A DNA stretch of 64,000 nucleotides from Kordiimonadales bacterium IMCC3096 (GTDB lineage Bacteria; Pseudomonadota; Alphaproteobacteria; Minwuiales; Minwuiaceae): positions 2,695,501 to 2,759,500 of the forward strand of contig CP018227.1 in the NCBI GenBank assembly GCA_016865035.1, given 5' to 3'. Position 1 is the stretch's first letter. Every line of letters begins with the position of its first letter. The position numbers were made by a program, and so were the translations under genes. Shown piece by piece: positions 22,769 to 50,271 of this stretch. Under the pieces are notes generated by a model. It was not told the DNA's origin and made no database searches. It worked only from the letters and a program-made list of their open reading frames with translations.

Positions 22769-23701
22769 ATGGAAACCATCATCGGACAGCCGCAGGGACA
22801 GGCACCGGGGCAGGCCGCCGCAGCGGACCTGATCAAGGACAGTTCCATCGCGACCTTCATGGAGGATGTGATCCAGGCATCGCAGGAAGTCCCCGTGCTG
22901 GTGGACTTCTGGGCGCCATGGTGCGGCCCCTGCAAGCAGTTGACCCCGGTTCTGGAGAAGGTCGTGACGGAAGCGGGCGGCAAGGTCCGCCTGGTCAAGA
23001 TCAACATCGACGAGAACCAGGAAATCGCGCAGCAGATGCGCATCCAGTCGATCCCGGCCGTCTTTGCCTTCAAGGGCGGACAGCCGGTCGATGGCTTCAT
23101 GGGCGCGCTGCCCGAAAGCCAGGTGCGGGAATTCATCGACAAGGTGGCCGGTGGTATCGGCCCCAGCCCGGAGGAACAGTTCCTGGAGGCCGGTACGGCG
23201 GCGCTGGAAGCAGGCGACGGCGAGACCGCAGCCGGTGCCTTCGCGCAGATGATCCAGGCCAATCCCGAAAGCCCGCAGGCCTTTGCCGGGCTGATCCGGG
23301 CCTATGTGCTGATGGGTGACTTCGACGGTGCCCAGCAGATCCTCGACCAGGTGCCGGTGGCGATTTCCACCCATGGCGAGATCGCCGGAGCGAAATCCGC
23401 GCTGGAACTGGCGCAGCAGACGAGCGATCCGGCCGCGATGCAGGAAGTCAGCCGCCTCGCCGCCGCGCTGGAGGCCGCGCCCGACGACATGCAGCTGCGG
23501 TTCGACCATGCCAATGCCCTGCTCGCCGCCGACCAGCGCGAGGAAGCGGTGGCGGAACTGCTGGAATGCTTCCGTCGTGACCGCGACTGGGAGGAACAGG
23601 CGGTTCGCAAGAAGCTGGTGCAGCTCTTCGAAGCCTGGGGCAACAAGGATCCGCTGACGCTCAAGTCCCGTCGGCGCCTCTCGACCCTGATGTTCAGCTG
23701 A
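22769..23701 (+). CDS. Thioredoxin-domain protein with TPR region (CnoX/YbbN type)
   Basis: 310 residues. An N-terminal thioredoxin fold (about 25-135) carries WAPWCGPCKQLTPVLEKV with the CGPC active site at residues 52-55, and RIQSIPAVFAFKGGQPVDGF with the cis-proline. The rest is alpha-helical, Ala/Glu-rich and TPR-like (YbbN C-terminal type). CnoX/YbbN proteins are co-chaperones that protect substrates and pass them to GroEL and DnaK. Unlike E. coli YbbN (SxxC), this one keeps both redox cysteines, as is typical in alphaproteobacteria. First gene of a probable operon with the LON-domain, Trm112 and DUF971 genes. Confidence 0.95.
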   Translation: METIIGQPQGQAPGQAAAADLIKDSSIATFMEDVIQASQEVPVLVDFWAPWCGPCKQLTPVLEKVVTEAGGKVRLVKINIDENQEIAQQMRIQSIPAVFAFKGGQPVDGFMGALPESQVREFIDKVAGGIGPSPEEQFLEAGTAALEAGDGETAAGAFAQMIQANPESPQAFAGLIRAYVLMGDFDGAQQILDQVPVAISTHGEIAGAKSALELAQQTSDPAAMQEVSRLAAALEAAPDDMQLRFDHANALLAADQREEAVAELLECFRRDRDWEEQAVRKKLVQLFEAWGNKDPLTLKSRRRLSTLMFS

Positions 23702-23720
23702 GGCCGGGGAGGTCGCACGC

Positions 23721-24386
23721 ATGGCCAATCCGGATCGCCCGACCGGGCCGGAGAGCCTGCCGGAGCGAATCGCGATCTTTCCGCTGCGGGGCGCCATCCT
23801 GCTGCCTGGCGGGCGGCTGCCGCTGAACATCTTCGAACCGCGCTATCTCGCCATGACCCGCGATGCGATGGCCGGTGGCCGGTTGATCGGCATGATCCAG
23901 CCGCGCGAGACGGACGAGGAAACCTACACGCCGCCGATCTATGGCATCGGCTGTCTGGGCCGCATCACCGAATTCGCGGAGACGGGCGACGGGCGCTACC
24001 AGATCGCGCTCACGGGCGTCTGCCGGTTCAGGGTGGCACAGGAAGTGGCAAGCGACACGGCCTACCGACAGGTGCTGGCCGACTATTCCGATTATCCGGA
24101 GGACTTTGGCGAGGAAGAGACCGCGGGGCGCAGCGTTGACCGCCAGCGTCTGGTGGGCAGCCTGCGGATGTTCCTCGACCGGCAGGGGCTGAAGGCGGAC
24201 TGGGAAGCTGCGGAACGGGCGAGCGATGTTGCGCTGATCAATTCGCTCTCGATGATGCTGCCGCTCGACCCCAGCGAGAAGCAGGCCTTGCTGGAGGCTG
24301 CGAATGTGCCGGAACGCGCGGATATACTGACGACGCTGATCGAGATGTCGCTGATGGCCGGCGATGGTGACTCGCCGGTGCAGTGA
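23721..24386 (+). CDS. LON N-terminal-type substrate-binding domain protein
   Basis: 221 residues made almost entirely of the Lon protease N-terminal domain, without AAA or protease domains. Typical parts are RIAIFPLRGAILLPGGRLPL (about 14-33), NIFEPRYLAMTRDAM and YGIGCLGRITEFAETGDGRY. Such stand-alone proteins are widespread; their role is unproven, possibly protein quality control. It lies 19 bp after the thioredoxin-TPR gene. The start follows GGGGAGG. Confidence 0.93.
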   Translation: MANPDRPTGPESLPERIAIFPLRGAILLPGGRLPLNIFEPRYLAMTRDAMAGGRLIGMIQPRETDEETYTPPIYGIGCLGRITEFAETGDGRYQIALTGVCRFRVAQEVASDTAYRQVLADYSDYPEDFGEEETAGRSVDRQRLVGSLRMFLDRQGLKADWEAAERASDVALINSLSMMLPLDPSEKQALLEAANVPERADILTTLIEMSLMAGDGDSPVQ

Positions 24387-24443
24387 AACGACCGGCCTGG
24401 CCGGATGGGAACCGCCCCTCAGGGGCAGGGCATGGGGCAAGAG

Positions 24444-24641
24444 ATGACACAGAACACGCTGGACCCGAAGCTGCTGGAGATCCTGGTCTGCCCGCTGACC
24501 AAGGGGCCGCTGGACTATGACGCGAAGGCACAGGAACTGATCAGCCGCCGTGCCGGTCTGGCATTCCCCGTGCGCGACGGCATCCCGATCATGCTGGTGG
24601 ATGAAGCCCGCAAGCTGGACGACGCCGAGGGCGCCGCCTGA
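24444..24641 (+). CDS. Trm112 family protein
   Basis: 65 residues (an upstream start at 24432 or 24405 is possible). It contains [20 protein letters not shown] and [18 protein letters not shown], the conserved core of the Trm112/YcaR family. In eukaryotes and archaea Trm112 activates several methyltransferases; the bacterial role is uncertain. Only one of the zinc-binding cysteines remains (CPLTK), so zinc binding is unlikely, a feature I recall for alphaproteobacterial members. Stop and next start overlap (TGATGA). Confidence 0.92.
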
Positions 24642-25027
24642 TGACATCCATGGAGATGTATGATCAGGCCGGGCGGCCACAGCCGACCGAAATCCGTCTG
24701 AAGAAGGCGGAGAAGGTGCTGGAGATCGATTTCGAGGACGGTCGCAGCTTCGTGTTTCCCGCCGAGTTCCTGCGGGTCGAAAGCCCGTCCGCTGAAGTGC
24801 GCGGCCACAGCCCGACACAGCGCCAGTGGGTGCCGGGAAAGCTGCATGTCGGCTTCGAGAGCCTGGAATCTGTCGGAAACTACGCTGTCCGCATCCGCTT
24901 CGACGACGGGCACGACACCGGGATCTACTCCTGGGGTTTCCTGTATGAATATGGCGACCAGTACGAGCAGATCTGGGACCGCTACTGCGAGACCCTGGAC
25001 GAAATGGGCCTCAGCCGGGAGCCCTGA
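24641..25027 (+). CDS. DUF971 domain protein (gamma-butyrobetaine hydroxylase-like N-terminal domain)
   Basis: 128 residues containing TEIRLKKAEKVLEIDFEDGR, FVFPAEFLRVESPSAEVRGH and GIYSWGFLYEYGDQYEQIW, which together define DUF971. Related domains sit at the N-terminus of 2-oxoglutarate-dependent dioxygenases and in Fe-S cluster carrier-like proteins; the free-standing role is unknown. It is translationally coupled to the Trm112 gene and is the last gene of the run before the hairpin repeat array. Confidence 0.92.
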   Translation: MTSMEMYDQAGRPQPTEIRLKKAEKVLEIDFEDGRSFVFPAEFLRVESPSAEVRGHSPTQRQWVPGKLHVGFESLESVGNYAVRIRFDDGHDTGIYSWGFLYEYGDQYEQIWDRYCETLDEMGLSREP

Positions 25028-25415
25028 TCAGCGGCCCCTGCGATCCTATCCCACGCCAGTGCGGCGCGCTGGGTACCCGGGTCAAGCCCGGGCACGACGT
25101 CGGTGGGGTGGGAGAGTTCGGCGAGACCGATCCCCTCCCTCCACGCCGCTCGCGGACTTGATCCGCGAGTCCAGTCTCCCACGCCGGTGCGGCACCCTGG
25201 GTACCCGGGTCAAGCCCGGGTACGACGTCGGTGGGGTGGGAGAGTTCGGCGAGACTGCCCCACCCATCACGCTGCTCGCGGACTTGATCCGCGAGCCCAG
25301 TCTCCGAGGTCGGTGCGGCACACCGGGCCGCCGGATCAGGTCCGGCGGCAACGTCCGTGTGGGTGGTGACGCCGGTGTTCCCTACACTTTCACACGCAGC
25401 CAGATGACAGTGCGC
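25028..25415. other. Gene-free region between convergent genes
   Basis: 388 bp with no supportable gene; it holds the hairpin repeat array described separately and a short non-repetitive tail. Open frames across it only reflect the repeat composition and do not resemble a protein family. Confidence 0.85.
25049..25349. repeat. Tandem 128-bp repeat (about 2.4 copies) made of perfect hairpins with 5-nt loops
   Basis: Two copies begin at 25049 and 25177 (period 128) and a diverged third begins near 25305. Each full copy holds two inverted repeats. The first has arms GTACCCGGG and CCCGGGTAC (25201-25223 in copy 2; 25073-25095 in copy 1 with one changed pair) and loop TCAAG. The second has arms CTCGCGGA and TCCGCGAG (25149-25169 and 25275-25295) and loop CTTGA. 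A fifth hairpin at 25327-25349 has arms GCCGCCGGA and TCCGGCGGC and loop TCAGG. It resembles palindromic intergenic (REP-like) repeats. Confidence 0.9.
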
Positions 25416-26426
25416 TCAGCCGTGCCATTCCGGCAGGCGGTCTTCCTCCACCGCGTGACAGGCGACCATGGCGGCGCCGACACTGACCGGTTTCGGGGCC
25501 TCGCGCTTGCAGCGGTCGGTTGCCAGCGGGCAGCGCGGATGGAAGGCGCAGCCCGACGGCGGGTCGATCGGGCTCGGCACTTCCCCGGCGACGGGCGTAC
25601 GGGCGCGGCCCGACATGTCGAGATCCGGGATCGCGTCCAGCAGCATCCGCGTGTAGGGATGGCGTGGCGCGGAGAAGATCACCTCCGTCTCGCCCCATTC
25701 CACCAGCCGTCCCAGGTACATCACACCGACCTTGGTCGAGACGTGATAGACCACGGCCAGGTCATGGCTGATGAACAGGTAGGTCAGCCCCAGTTCCCGC
25801 TGCAGCTTCTTCATCAGGTTCAGGATCTGGGCCTGCACCGAGACGTCCAGCGCCGAGGTCGGCTCGTCGCAGACAAGGAATTCCGGTGATCCCGCAAGCG
25901 CGCGGGCGATGGAGATGCGCTGGCGCTGCCCGCCTGAGAACTCGTGCGGGTACTTTTCGCCATCCGCCGCGGACAGGCCGACCTGTTCCAGCAGTTCGCC
26001 GACCCGTTCACGGATCGCGGCGTCACCCTTCACCAGCCGGTTGAACCGGATCGGCTCCGCGACGATGTCCATCACCCGCCAGCGCGGATTGAGGCTGGCG
26101 TAGGGATCCTGGAAGATCATCTGCATCCGGCGCTGGGCCGTGCGATTGCGGGATCGCGCGGCACCGGAGGAGATGTCCATGCCGTCGAATTCGAGGCTCC
26201 CGGCGGTGGGGTTGTAGAGGCCGACCACCAGCCGGGCGACCGTGGACTTGCCGCAACCGGACTCGCCCACCAGGCTGAATGTCTCACCCCGCCCGATCTC
26301 GAAGCCGACACCATCGACGGCCTTGACCACGGACCTTGGCCGACGCTCGATCACGCGGTTCAGCCAGGGCGGTGAAACATCGAAATGGCGGACCAGATTG
26401 TCGACCTTCAGCAGGGTATCGGTCAT
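25416..26426 (-). CDS. Peptide-type ABC transporter ATP-binding protein (DppF/OppF-like)
   Basis: 336 residues. ATPase of an importer for peptides or similar small molecules. It has Walker [10 protein letters not shown], the signature [15 protein letters not shown], Walker [15 protein letters not shown], and the C-terminal oligopeptide-transporter cap with [15 protein letters not shown]. An insertion between the start and the Walker motif ([19 protein letters not shown]) is normal for DppF. The start at 26426 overlaps the stop of the partner ATPase gene (ATGA). Last gene of the five-gene operon. Confidence 0.95.
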
Positions 26427-27412
26427 TGGCTGTCCCCCTGCGCCGCTTGTTTCTCCATCAGCCAGCAGGACGCGGAATGGCTGCCGTCGCCGATCAGGTC
26501 GGGACGCACGGTGTGGCACTTGAAATGCACCTTCGGACACCGGGGGTGAAAGGCGCAGCCATTGGGAATCGCGGTCAGACGTGGCATGGAGCCGTCGATC
26601 TGGGTCAGCAGGTCATCGCGCCCGCCGATGGTCGGGATCGCGCCCATCAGCCCCTCCGTATAGGGATGCCGGGCCCGCTTGATGACGTCCTGCACGGGGC
26701 CGACCTCCGCGATGCGTCCCGCATACATCACGGCCACGCGGTCCGCCGTTTCGGCGATGACGCCCATGTCGTGCGTTACCAGCATGATGGCGGTCTGGTG
26801 TTCGCGGCAGAGCCGTTTCAGCAGGGTGATGATCTGGGCCTGAATGGAGACATCGAGCGCCGTCGTCGGCTCGTCGGCGATGATCAGCCGTGGCTCCGCA
26901 CACAGCGCCAGGGCGATGACGACGCGCTGGCGCATGCCGCCGGAGAACTGGTGCGGGTAGTGGTCCAGCCGTTCCTCCGCCGCGGGAATGCCGACTTCCT
27001 TCAGCAGGTCCAGCGCCCGCGCCCGGGCCTGCTTCTCGGTCAGGTCCATGTGCGTGGTGATGGTCTCGATCAGTTGCTCCGACACCCGGTAGAGCGGGTT
27101 CAGGCTGGTCAGCGGATCCTGGAAGATCGCCCCGATCTCCTTGCCCCGGATCTTGCGCATCTCGTCATAGGACAGGTTGTCGATGCGGCGACCGTCCAGC
27201 AGGATCTCGCCATCCGCGACCCGGCCCGGCGGTTCGATCAGGCCGATGATGGCGGCGCCGGTCATGGACTTGCCGGCACCGGATTCGCCGACCACACCCA
27301 GCACTTCGCCCGGCGCGATACTGAGCGAGATGTCGTCCACCGCGACCAGCGTTCCCTTTCGCGTCGGGAACTCGACGCGCAGGTTTCGGACTTCCAGCAG
27401 AGGATTGGCCAT
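26423..27412 (-). CDS. Peptide-type ABC transporter ATP-binding protein (DppD/OppD-like)
   Basis: 329 residues with Walker [10 protein letters not shown], signature [15 protein letters not shown], Walker [15 protein letters not shown] and the C-terminal [15 protein letters not shown] motif. It pairs with the following DppF-like protein to drive the permeases. It follows the DppC-like gene by four bases and overlaps the next ATPase gene. Confidence 0.95.
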
Positions 27413-27416
27413 GGTG

Positions 27417-28349
27417 CTACCTCAGCTTCGGGTTCAGGGCGTCGCGCAGCCAGTCGCCCAGCAGATTGACCGACAGGACCAGCAGCGCCAGGAAGACACC
27501 GGGGAAGATCACGATCCACCACTCGCCGGAGAACAGGAAATCCTGCCCGATCCGGATCAGGGTGCCGAGCGATGGCTCGGTCGGCGGCACCCCGACACCG
27601 AGGAACGACAGGGTGGCCTCCAGCAGCACGGCAATCGCCAGGTTGATGGTACCGATGACCAGTACCGGCCCCATGACGTTGGGCAGCACGTGGCGGAACA
27701 TGATGGCGCGGCTGGACAGGCCGATGACCCGGGCCGCCTGCACGTACTCCTTGCTCTTCTCCACCATCGTCGACCCCCGGACGGTTCGGGCGAACTGGGG
27801 CCAGATGGACATGCCGATGGAGAAGATGATGACCACCAGCGCCAGCGTCTCGTGGCTGCTGCCCGGCAGGACGGAGCGCAGTACGCCGTTCAGCAGCAGC
27901 GCCACCAGCAGGGCGGGGAAGCTGATCTGCACATCGGCGATACGCATGATCACGGCATCGGTGGTGCCGCCGACATAGCCCGCGATCAGTCCCAGCGTGA
28001 CGCCGATGATGATCGACAGGATGACGGAGGCGAAGCCGACCCCGATGGAGATGCGGGAGCCGTAGAGGATCGCCGAATAGAGATCGCGCCCCTGATCATC
28101 GGTGCCCAGCGGGAAGCGCCATTGCCCGTCTTCCGTCCAGACCGGTGCCGTGAAGGCGTCGAGCAGGTCGAGGGAGGCCGGATCGAAGGGATCCTGCGGC
28201 GTGATCAGCGGGGCGATGACCGCGGCAACGATCATCACGATGGCCAGCACGGTGGCAACTACCGTCACCGGGCTGGTGCGGAAGCTGTACCAGATGTCGC
28301 TGTCGAGGAAGCGCGCGAAGTTGTCCTGGATGCGTGCGACGGGACCCAT
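27417..28349 (-). CDS. Peptide-type ABC transporter permease (DppC-like)
   Basis: 310 residues with an N-terminal OppC_N region, the first membrane helix at about 25-50 (VVATVLAIVMIVAAVIAPL), PLGTDDQGRDLYSAILYGSR preceding the transmembrane domain, and the EAA-like loop REYVQAARVIGL-type segment (here KEYVQAARVIGLSSRAIMFRH) before the final helices. Downstream gene overlaps are tight, and the upstream permease gene ends one base before. Inner membrane. Confidence 0.94.
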   Translation of the reverse strand: MGPVARIQDNFARFLDSDIWYSFRTSPVTVVATVLAIVMIVAAVIAPLITPQDPFDPASLDLLDAFTAPVWTEDGQWRFPLGTDDQGRDLYSAILYGSRISIGVGFASVILSIIIGVTLGLIAGYVGGTTDAVIMRIADVQISFPALLVALLLNGVLRSVLPGSSHETLALVVIIFSIGMSIWPQFARTVRGSTMVEKSKEYVQAARVIGLSSRAIMFRHVLPNVMGPVLVIGTINLAIAVLLEATLSFLGVGVPPTEPSLGTLIRIGQDFLFSGEWWIVIFPGVFLALLVLSVNLLGDWLRDALNPKLR

Positions 28350-31736: not shown

Positions 31737-31762
31737 ATGGGGCGCCGGAGACGGCGCCCCAT
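31737..31762 (+). terminator. Rho-independent terminator of the cytochrome c gene
   Basis: Perfect 11-bp stem (ATGGGGCGCCG with CGGCGCCCCAT) capped by a GAGA tetraloop and followed by TCTGTTTC, 30 bp after the stop codon. Confidence 0.85.
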
Positions 31763-50176: not shown

Positions 50177-50208
50177 TACGCCTGTCGCACGATTGGTGAT
50201 TTCGTTTC

Positions 50209-50238
50209 GGGGGTCGGAACCATATGGTTCCGACCCCC
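50209..50238. terminator. Terminator of the rpsF-rpsR-rplI operon
   Basis: Perfect 30-bp palindrome: GGGGGTCGGAACCAT followed at once by its reverse complement; as RNA, a 13-bp stem with an ATAT loop. Followed by GTTTCGATTC, a weak U-tract. 32 bp after rplI. Confidence 0.75.
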
Positions 50239-50271
50239 GTTTCGATTCATGGCTGGCGTCGGGAGGTGTCC

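Follow-up and report, generated by a model that had tools for sequence, protein, structure and literature searches.

The hairpin array at positions 25073-25349 of the window (the whole 64-kb stretch of DNA that was analysed) very probably represents a local cluster of CGTC-tagged REPs, in which an asymmetric head-to-head dimer of approximately 86 bp would be the unit that moves and is subsequently duplicated in tandem. The dimers are most likely non-autonomous elements that are tolerated at gene ends.

The array and its hairpin family

According to sequence reading and a hairpin scan the array comprises five hairpins, each with a 5-nt loop, between two convergent genes. These results agree with the original prediction of five such inverted repeats, four of them perfect, with the loops in the order TCAAG, CTTGA, TCAAG, CTTGA and TCAGG, and likewise with the predicted position between convergent genes, which encode a GBBH-like_N domain protein (+ strand) and an OppF-like ATPase (- strand). 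Hairpins 2 to 5 have perfect stems of at least 8 bp. The following features were assigned (loop positions in brackets):

24641..25027, + strand: upstream gene, GBBH-like_N domain protein (PF06155), ending at 25027
25043..25072, + strand: dimer spacer remnant, resembling by inspection the 30-nt spacer of the complete dimers
25073..25095, + strand: REP hairpin 1, loop TCAAG (25082-25086), stem of 9 bp interrupted by one A-C mismatch, right-hand CGTC tag (as GACG)
25143..25228: complete head-to-head dimer 1 (hairpins 2 and 3), loop distance 53 bp, tags facing outwards and CCA tails inwards
25148..25170, - strand: REP hairpin 2, loop CTTGA on the + strand (25157-25161), corresponding to TCAAG on its own strand
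25201..25223, + strand: REP hairpin 3, loop TCAAG (25210-25214), perfect 9-bp stem
25269..25354: complete head-to-head dimer 2 (hairpins 4 and 5)
25274..25296, - strand: REP hairpin 4, loop CTTGA on the + strand (25283-25287), perfect 9-bp stem
25327..25349, + strand: REP hairpin 5, loop TCAGG (25336-25340), perfect 9-bp stem
25416..26483, - strand: convergent gene, oligopeptide (OppF-like) ABC transporter ATPase (PF00005 and PF08352), ending at 25416; the span is the chosen translated part of the ORF 25416-26540

The array had been predicted to extend from 25049 to 25349, limits that are to be adjusted, since hairpin 1 begins at 25073, the spacer remnant reaches back as far as approximately 25043 and the end of the last tag is near 25354. 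The left partner hairpin of the spacer remnant is missing, and the remnant lies beside the stop codon of the upstream gene. A repeat unit of 128 bp, as also predicted, matches the first direct-repeat spacing, whereas the second spacing is 126 bp.

Clustering of the hairpins by chance is excluded. Only six perfect hairpins with an 8-bp stem and a 5-nt loop were detected in the 64-kb window and four of them are located inside the 301-bp array stretch, compared to a maximum of one and a mean of 0.02 in 2000 dinucleotide-preserving shuffles of this stretch. The longest perfect hairpin in the window scan was found elsewhere, at 50208-50239, where inverted 14-bp arms match perfectly around a 4-nt centre, and at 31737-31762 a GAGA loop is closed by a perfect 11-bp stem. 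A search of the region 23000-27500 against Rfam (E up to 1) yielded no credible RNA family match; a sub-threshold hit to CcsR1 inside the upstream gene (20 bits against a cut-off of 65) was dismissed as chance.

The hairpins of the array belong to a family that is spread over the 4.29-Mb genome, which is assigned to Minwuia through relatives detected with the upstream gene. Its core CGGRTCAAGYCCG occurs in 80 exact copies (37 on the + and 43 on the - strand) and the reversed core, used as a control, has no match in the same genome. A total of 125 hairpins were scanned in 32 fetched genome stretches, of which 107 were kept as family members and 18 were left out as unrelated. The stretches were picked from matches to the TCAAG core and to two stem patterns, the stem-pattern matches being those listed up to about 2.96-2.97 Mb, and the scan required a 5-nt loop with at most two mismatches to TCAAG, so that copies with other loops are under-counted.

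On the strand carrying the TCAAG loop the consensus reads CTGG - 9-nt arm - TCAAG - 9-nt arm - GNCGT, corresponding to ACGNC - hairpin - CCAG on the opposite strand. The stem pairs in 81-100% of the 107 hairpins at positions 1 to 9 (88% at pair 9) and in 1% at pair 10, and it is perfect over 9 bp in 73 of them. Stem variation occurs mostly by whole subtypes, namely GTACCCGGG, GCTCGCGGA, GCCGCCGGA and their relatives. The outermost stem pair is G-C in 93/107 hairpins, followed by C-G (58) or T-A (47). Among the 5-nt tags beside the stem (n = 107) ACGCC (42) is the most frequent, followed by ACGTC (21), ACGAT (8), ACGGC (6), ACGAC (5) and others; the CG of the tag is conserved in 95-98% and the exact CGTC forms a minority. 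The unpaired tail on the other side is CCAG in 78, CCAT in 11 and CCAC in 2 hairpins, with CCA present in at least 91 of the 107. In this loop-selected sample the loops are TCAAG (75), TCAGG (20), TCGAG (9) or other (3). If the loop was left free, 39 of the 77 listed matches to GCGGANNNNNTCCGC carried one of these three loops (counted by eye); the whole-genome total for GCGGANNNNNTCCGC is 99, compared to 32 for the reversed control.

Another type of hairpin (CTTCCCCC-loop-GGGGGAAG, the loop being TCGAT or GCAAG) was observed in four copies near arrays of this genome (G000 positions 1468929, 1784140, 2957576 and 4016374; L036, L041, L052 and L057) and looks like a further small repeat family.

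Dimer geometry and turnover among congeners

Neighbouring hairpins less than 200 bp apart are in opposite orientation in 66 of 69 cases in this genome, 32 of them with the tags outside and 34 with the tags inside, and only three point in the same direction. The tags-inside arrangement is about as frequent as the tags-outside arrangement because the dimers stand in tandem. Where the tags point outwards and the CCA tails inwards, the distance between the loops is rigid (53/54 bp in 28/32), whereas it is spread over 62-84 bp in 32 of the 34 tags-inside pairs. The 28 rigid dimers share a conserved, asymmetric spacer of 30/31 bp, e.g. CCAGTCTCCCACGCCGGTGCGGCACCCTGG, which was also found in its reverse form, and usually combine hairpins of different subtypes. 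The building block of the arrays is hence an asymmetric head-to-head heterodimer of approximately 86 bp with the ends ACG...CGT. Dimers share on average 90% identity within one array (9 pairs) and 74% between arrays (369 pairs).

A similar pattern emerged across the Alphaproteobacteria. In the 44 genomes classed as high-copy (20 or more cores on both strands together), which were picked by eye from the table of the 385 genomes searched, head-to-head orientation accounts for 439 close pairs and tail-to-tail orientation for 47, thus 486/508 in opposite orientation, and 22 pairs point in the same direction; the gap window used spans the tail-to-tail distances of the Minwuia genome only in part.

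The comparison with congeners points to turnover of the arrays. At the site of a six-hairpin array (L037, 1518134-1518437) the interval measures 466 bp in this genome versus 24 bp in G387 and 23 bp in G197, with matching flanks. From presence and absence at this one site we infer mobility, i.e. that arrays would be gained or lost on a within-genus time scale and then duplicated locally in tandem. A single deletion in a common ancestor of G387 and G197 would produce the same pattern at L037. At the window site G387 (Minwuia thermotolerans DHS20C03; L006) carries a different array with stems of the GCTGCCGGA and CACCCGGG types. The sequence to the right of the last hairpin is alignable between both genomes, and hairpin 5 of the window resembles the array units of Minwuia thermotolerans DHS20C03 at this site. 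The two genes next to the window array were not found as neighbours in the congeners G197, G082, G385, G368 and G386. The two flanks are located there on different contigs or far apart, so that gene order differs or is unreadable in these genomes, and gene order may be broken at the window array.

Loop pairing, gene ends and mobilisation

The original prediction regarded the complementarity of alternate loops as a potential kissing device, according to which adjacent TCAAG and CTTGA loops would have been selected to pair, either as RNA or as extruded single-stranded DNA. Neighbouring loops are indeed perfectly complementary in 36 of the 66 opposite-orientation pairs and, by inspection, a single G-U wobble could still allow the variants TCAGG and TCGAG to pair with CUUGA in the RNA of one of the two strands. 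However, shuffling the loops among copies gives 34.9 of 66 pairs with identical loops, close to the 36 observed, and no neighbouring pair shares a common variant loop, with 2.6 expected, or 2.0 if shuffled within stem type, so that compensatory change is not apparent. The minimum-energy folds of both strands of the window site use the stems, computed with a program that cannot model kissing loops. Since each dimer joins copies of a single palindrome in inverse orientation, and the TCAAG loop of this palindrome is asymmetric, TCAAG and CTTGA alternate, and inverting one conserved loop makes selection for pairing needless. The complementarity was to be put down to chance if the hairpins occurred only here or their loops varied freely; copies were detected genome-wide with conserved loops, but the complementarity nevertheless follows from their inversion. 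Taken together, a kissing-loop device is hardly credible, and loop complementarity is better read as a by-product of the opposite orientation of the copies.

A selected role for the two convergent genes, either as a strong bidirectional terminator, also part of the original prediction, or as a stabiliser of mRNA 3' ends, would be compatible with the placement of the family. Of 37 clusters, 27 are located between convergent and 10 between codirectional genes, with none between divergent genes or inside a called gene, whereas the other neighbouring gene pairs in the same fetched stretches comprise, by subtraction, 13 convergent, 85 codirectional and 29 divergent pairs (odds ratio of about 24 for convergent placement). 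The underlying genes were called by a home-made caller trained on long ORFs of the same stretches; at the window site it overlooked the OppF-like gene but still gave the correct convergent class. Furthermore, both strands of the window array fold more stably than shuffled sequences (z -3.1 and -3.7). On the other hand, a terminator scan detected no T-tract or U-tract after any of the five window hairpins, and the combination of a GC-rich hairpin and a U-tract typical of an intrinsic (Rho-independent) terminator is lacking. The same scan revealed no promoter-like site at the window site, and its sole terminator-like match (24918-24934) falls within the upstream gene instead of the array. Taking furthermore into account that two congeners with matching flanks lack the array at L037, and that placement at gene ends is explicable by avoidance of promoters and coding sequence, a selected function of this kind appears rather unlikely. 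A stabilising or pausing role at mRNA 3' ends is possible, tolerance at gene ends being the simpler reading.

As to the mobiliser, the dimers could be GTAG-type REPs or REPINs driven by a RAYT, and a head-to-head dimer layout predominates among GTAG REPs as well, according to Di Nocera et al. 2013 (PMC3733652). However, the suggested RAYT-type transposase was not detected: a search for PF01797 (Y1_Tnp, which covers RAYTs) gave no match in this genome, in three congeners or in one genome of the same family, with positive controls in E. coli and Caulobacter. The tag is moreover ACGYC-like and not GTAG. Class-wide, PF01797 was found in 72/385 genomes and shows no association with high copy number (9/44 high-copy versus 63/341 other genomes, p 0.69). 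A RAYT-driven origin is therefore very unlikely. Copy number also differs strongly between members of the same genus that both lack PF01797, as in genus g156 with no core in G172 and 125 exact cores in G268. Genus g176 behaves like g156, with cores ranging from 0-1 to more than 100 within the genus (rich G295/G203 versus poor G373), and such within-genus contrasts were seen in genomes as small as 1.7 Mb.

For CGTC-tagged REPs we envisage that the mobile or duplicating unit would be the dimer, i.e. two usually different hairpins with 9-bp stems and 5-nt loops inverted around a 30/31-bp spacer, which would reach new sites by an activity acting in trans other than a Y1/RAYT transposase of this genome. 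Tentatively, the dimers might spread in bursts via a non-Y1 activity, with the asymmetric loop and the ACG...CGT ends serving as recognition signals of an undescribed single-strand-processing enzyme. Arrays would then grow by tandem duplication of the dimer-plus-linker period of about 125 bp, and the dimers would be retained where they are least harmful, between gene 3' ends. Once transcribed, their hairpins may have the incidental effect of stabilising or pausing mRNA 3' ends.

The analysis thus places a described but poorly explained class of repeats in the Minwuia lineage and assigns the striking alternation of the loops to orientation instead of a kissing device. An orthologous site with and without the array among congeners provides material on what moves CGTC REPs, a question left by the 2013 paper. 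The same-genus pairs with 0 versus more than 100 copies, which are not explained by a Y1 transposase, bear on the same mobiliser question.

Comparison with known repeat families

GTAG REPs, REPINs and BIMEs are short palindromes that occur as inverted pairs in extragenic, often clustered positions and are often tied to a RAYT gene. The Minwuia repeats are likewise short inverted-pair palindromes that are extragenic and often clustered, but differ in their tag and in the lack of a RAYT gene in the genome.

Among the papers listed by the literature searches none pointed to a description of such repeats in Minwuia. The closest counterpart is provided by the CGTC-tagged REPs of Di Nocera et al. 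2013 (PMC3733652). As described in that paper, CGTC REPs combine an 8-9 bp stem and a 4-5 nt loop with the CGTC tag and a short tail of CCA consensus, and the families CGTC-3 and CGTC-4 have 9-bp stems and 5-nt loops. They occur in many copies, mostly in intergenic positions with convergent or codirectional neighbours, at gene 3' ends, mainly in Alphaproteobacteria, and are reported there as not associated with transposase genes. Head-to-head dimers with conserved spacers predominate, heterodimers are common, tail-to-tail dimers rare and head-to-tail dimers negligible. Rickettsia RPE-4 and RPE-6 as well as Neisseria dRS3 are placed in CGTC families by the same source, and by that placement would belong to the same superfamily as the Minwuia repeats.

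Three differences were noticed. The outermost stem pair of the Minwuia family is G-C and not A-T, which in CGTC stems occupies the first and second positions "almost invariably" (PMC3733652); since A-T pairs are not stated as defining in the parts of the paper considered, the G-C first pair is treated as a family variant. The Minwuia tag is mostly ACGCC, and tandem clusters of 3-7 hairpins are common in this genome, whereas CGTC REPs are said to form clusters larger than two only rarely (PMC3733652). In all other respects compared the Minwuia repeats resemble CGTC REPs: they share the CGTC-type terminal tag, the 9-bp stem, the 5-nt loop and the CCA tail, form head-to-head dimers with a conserved spacer in many copies at gene 3' ends, and are without a dedicated transposase, as judged here for PF01797 only. 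The prediction of a REP-like element thus holds, since the array agrees with how CGTC-tagged REPs are described.
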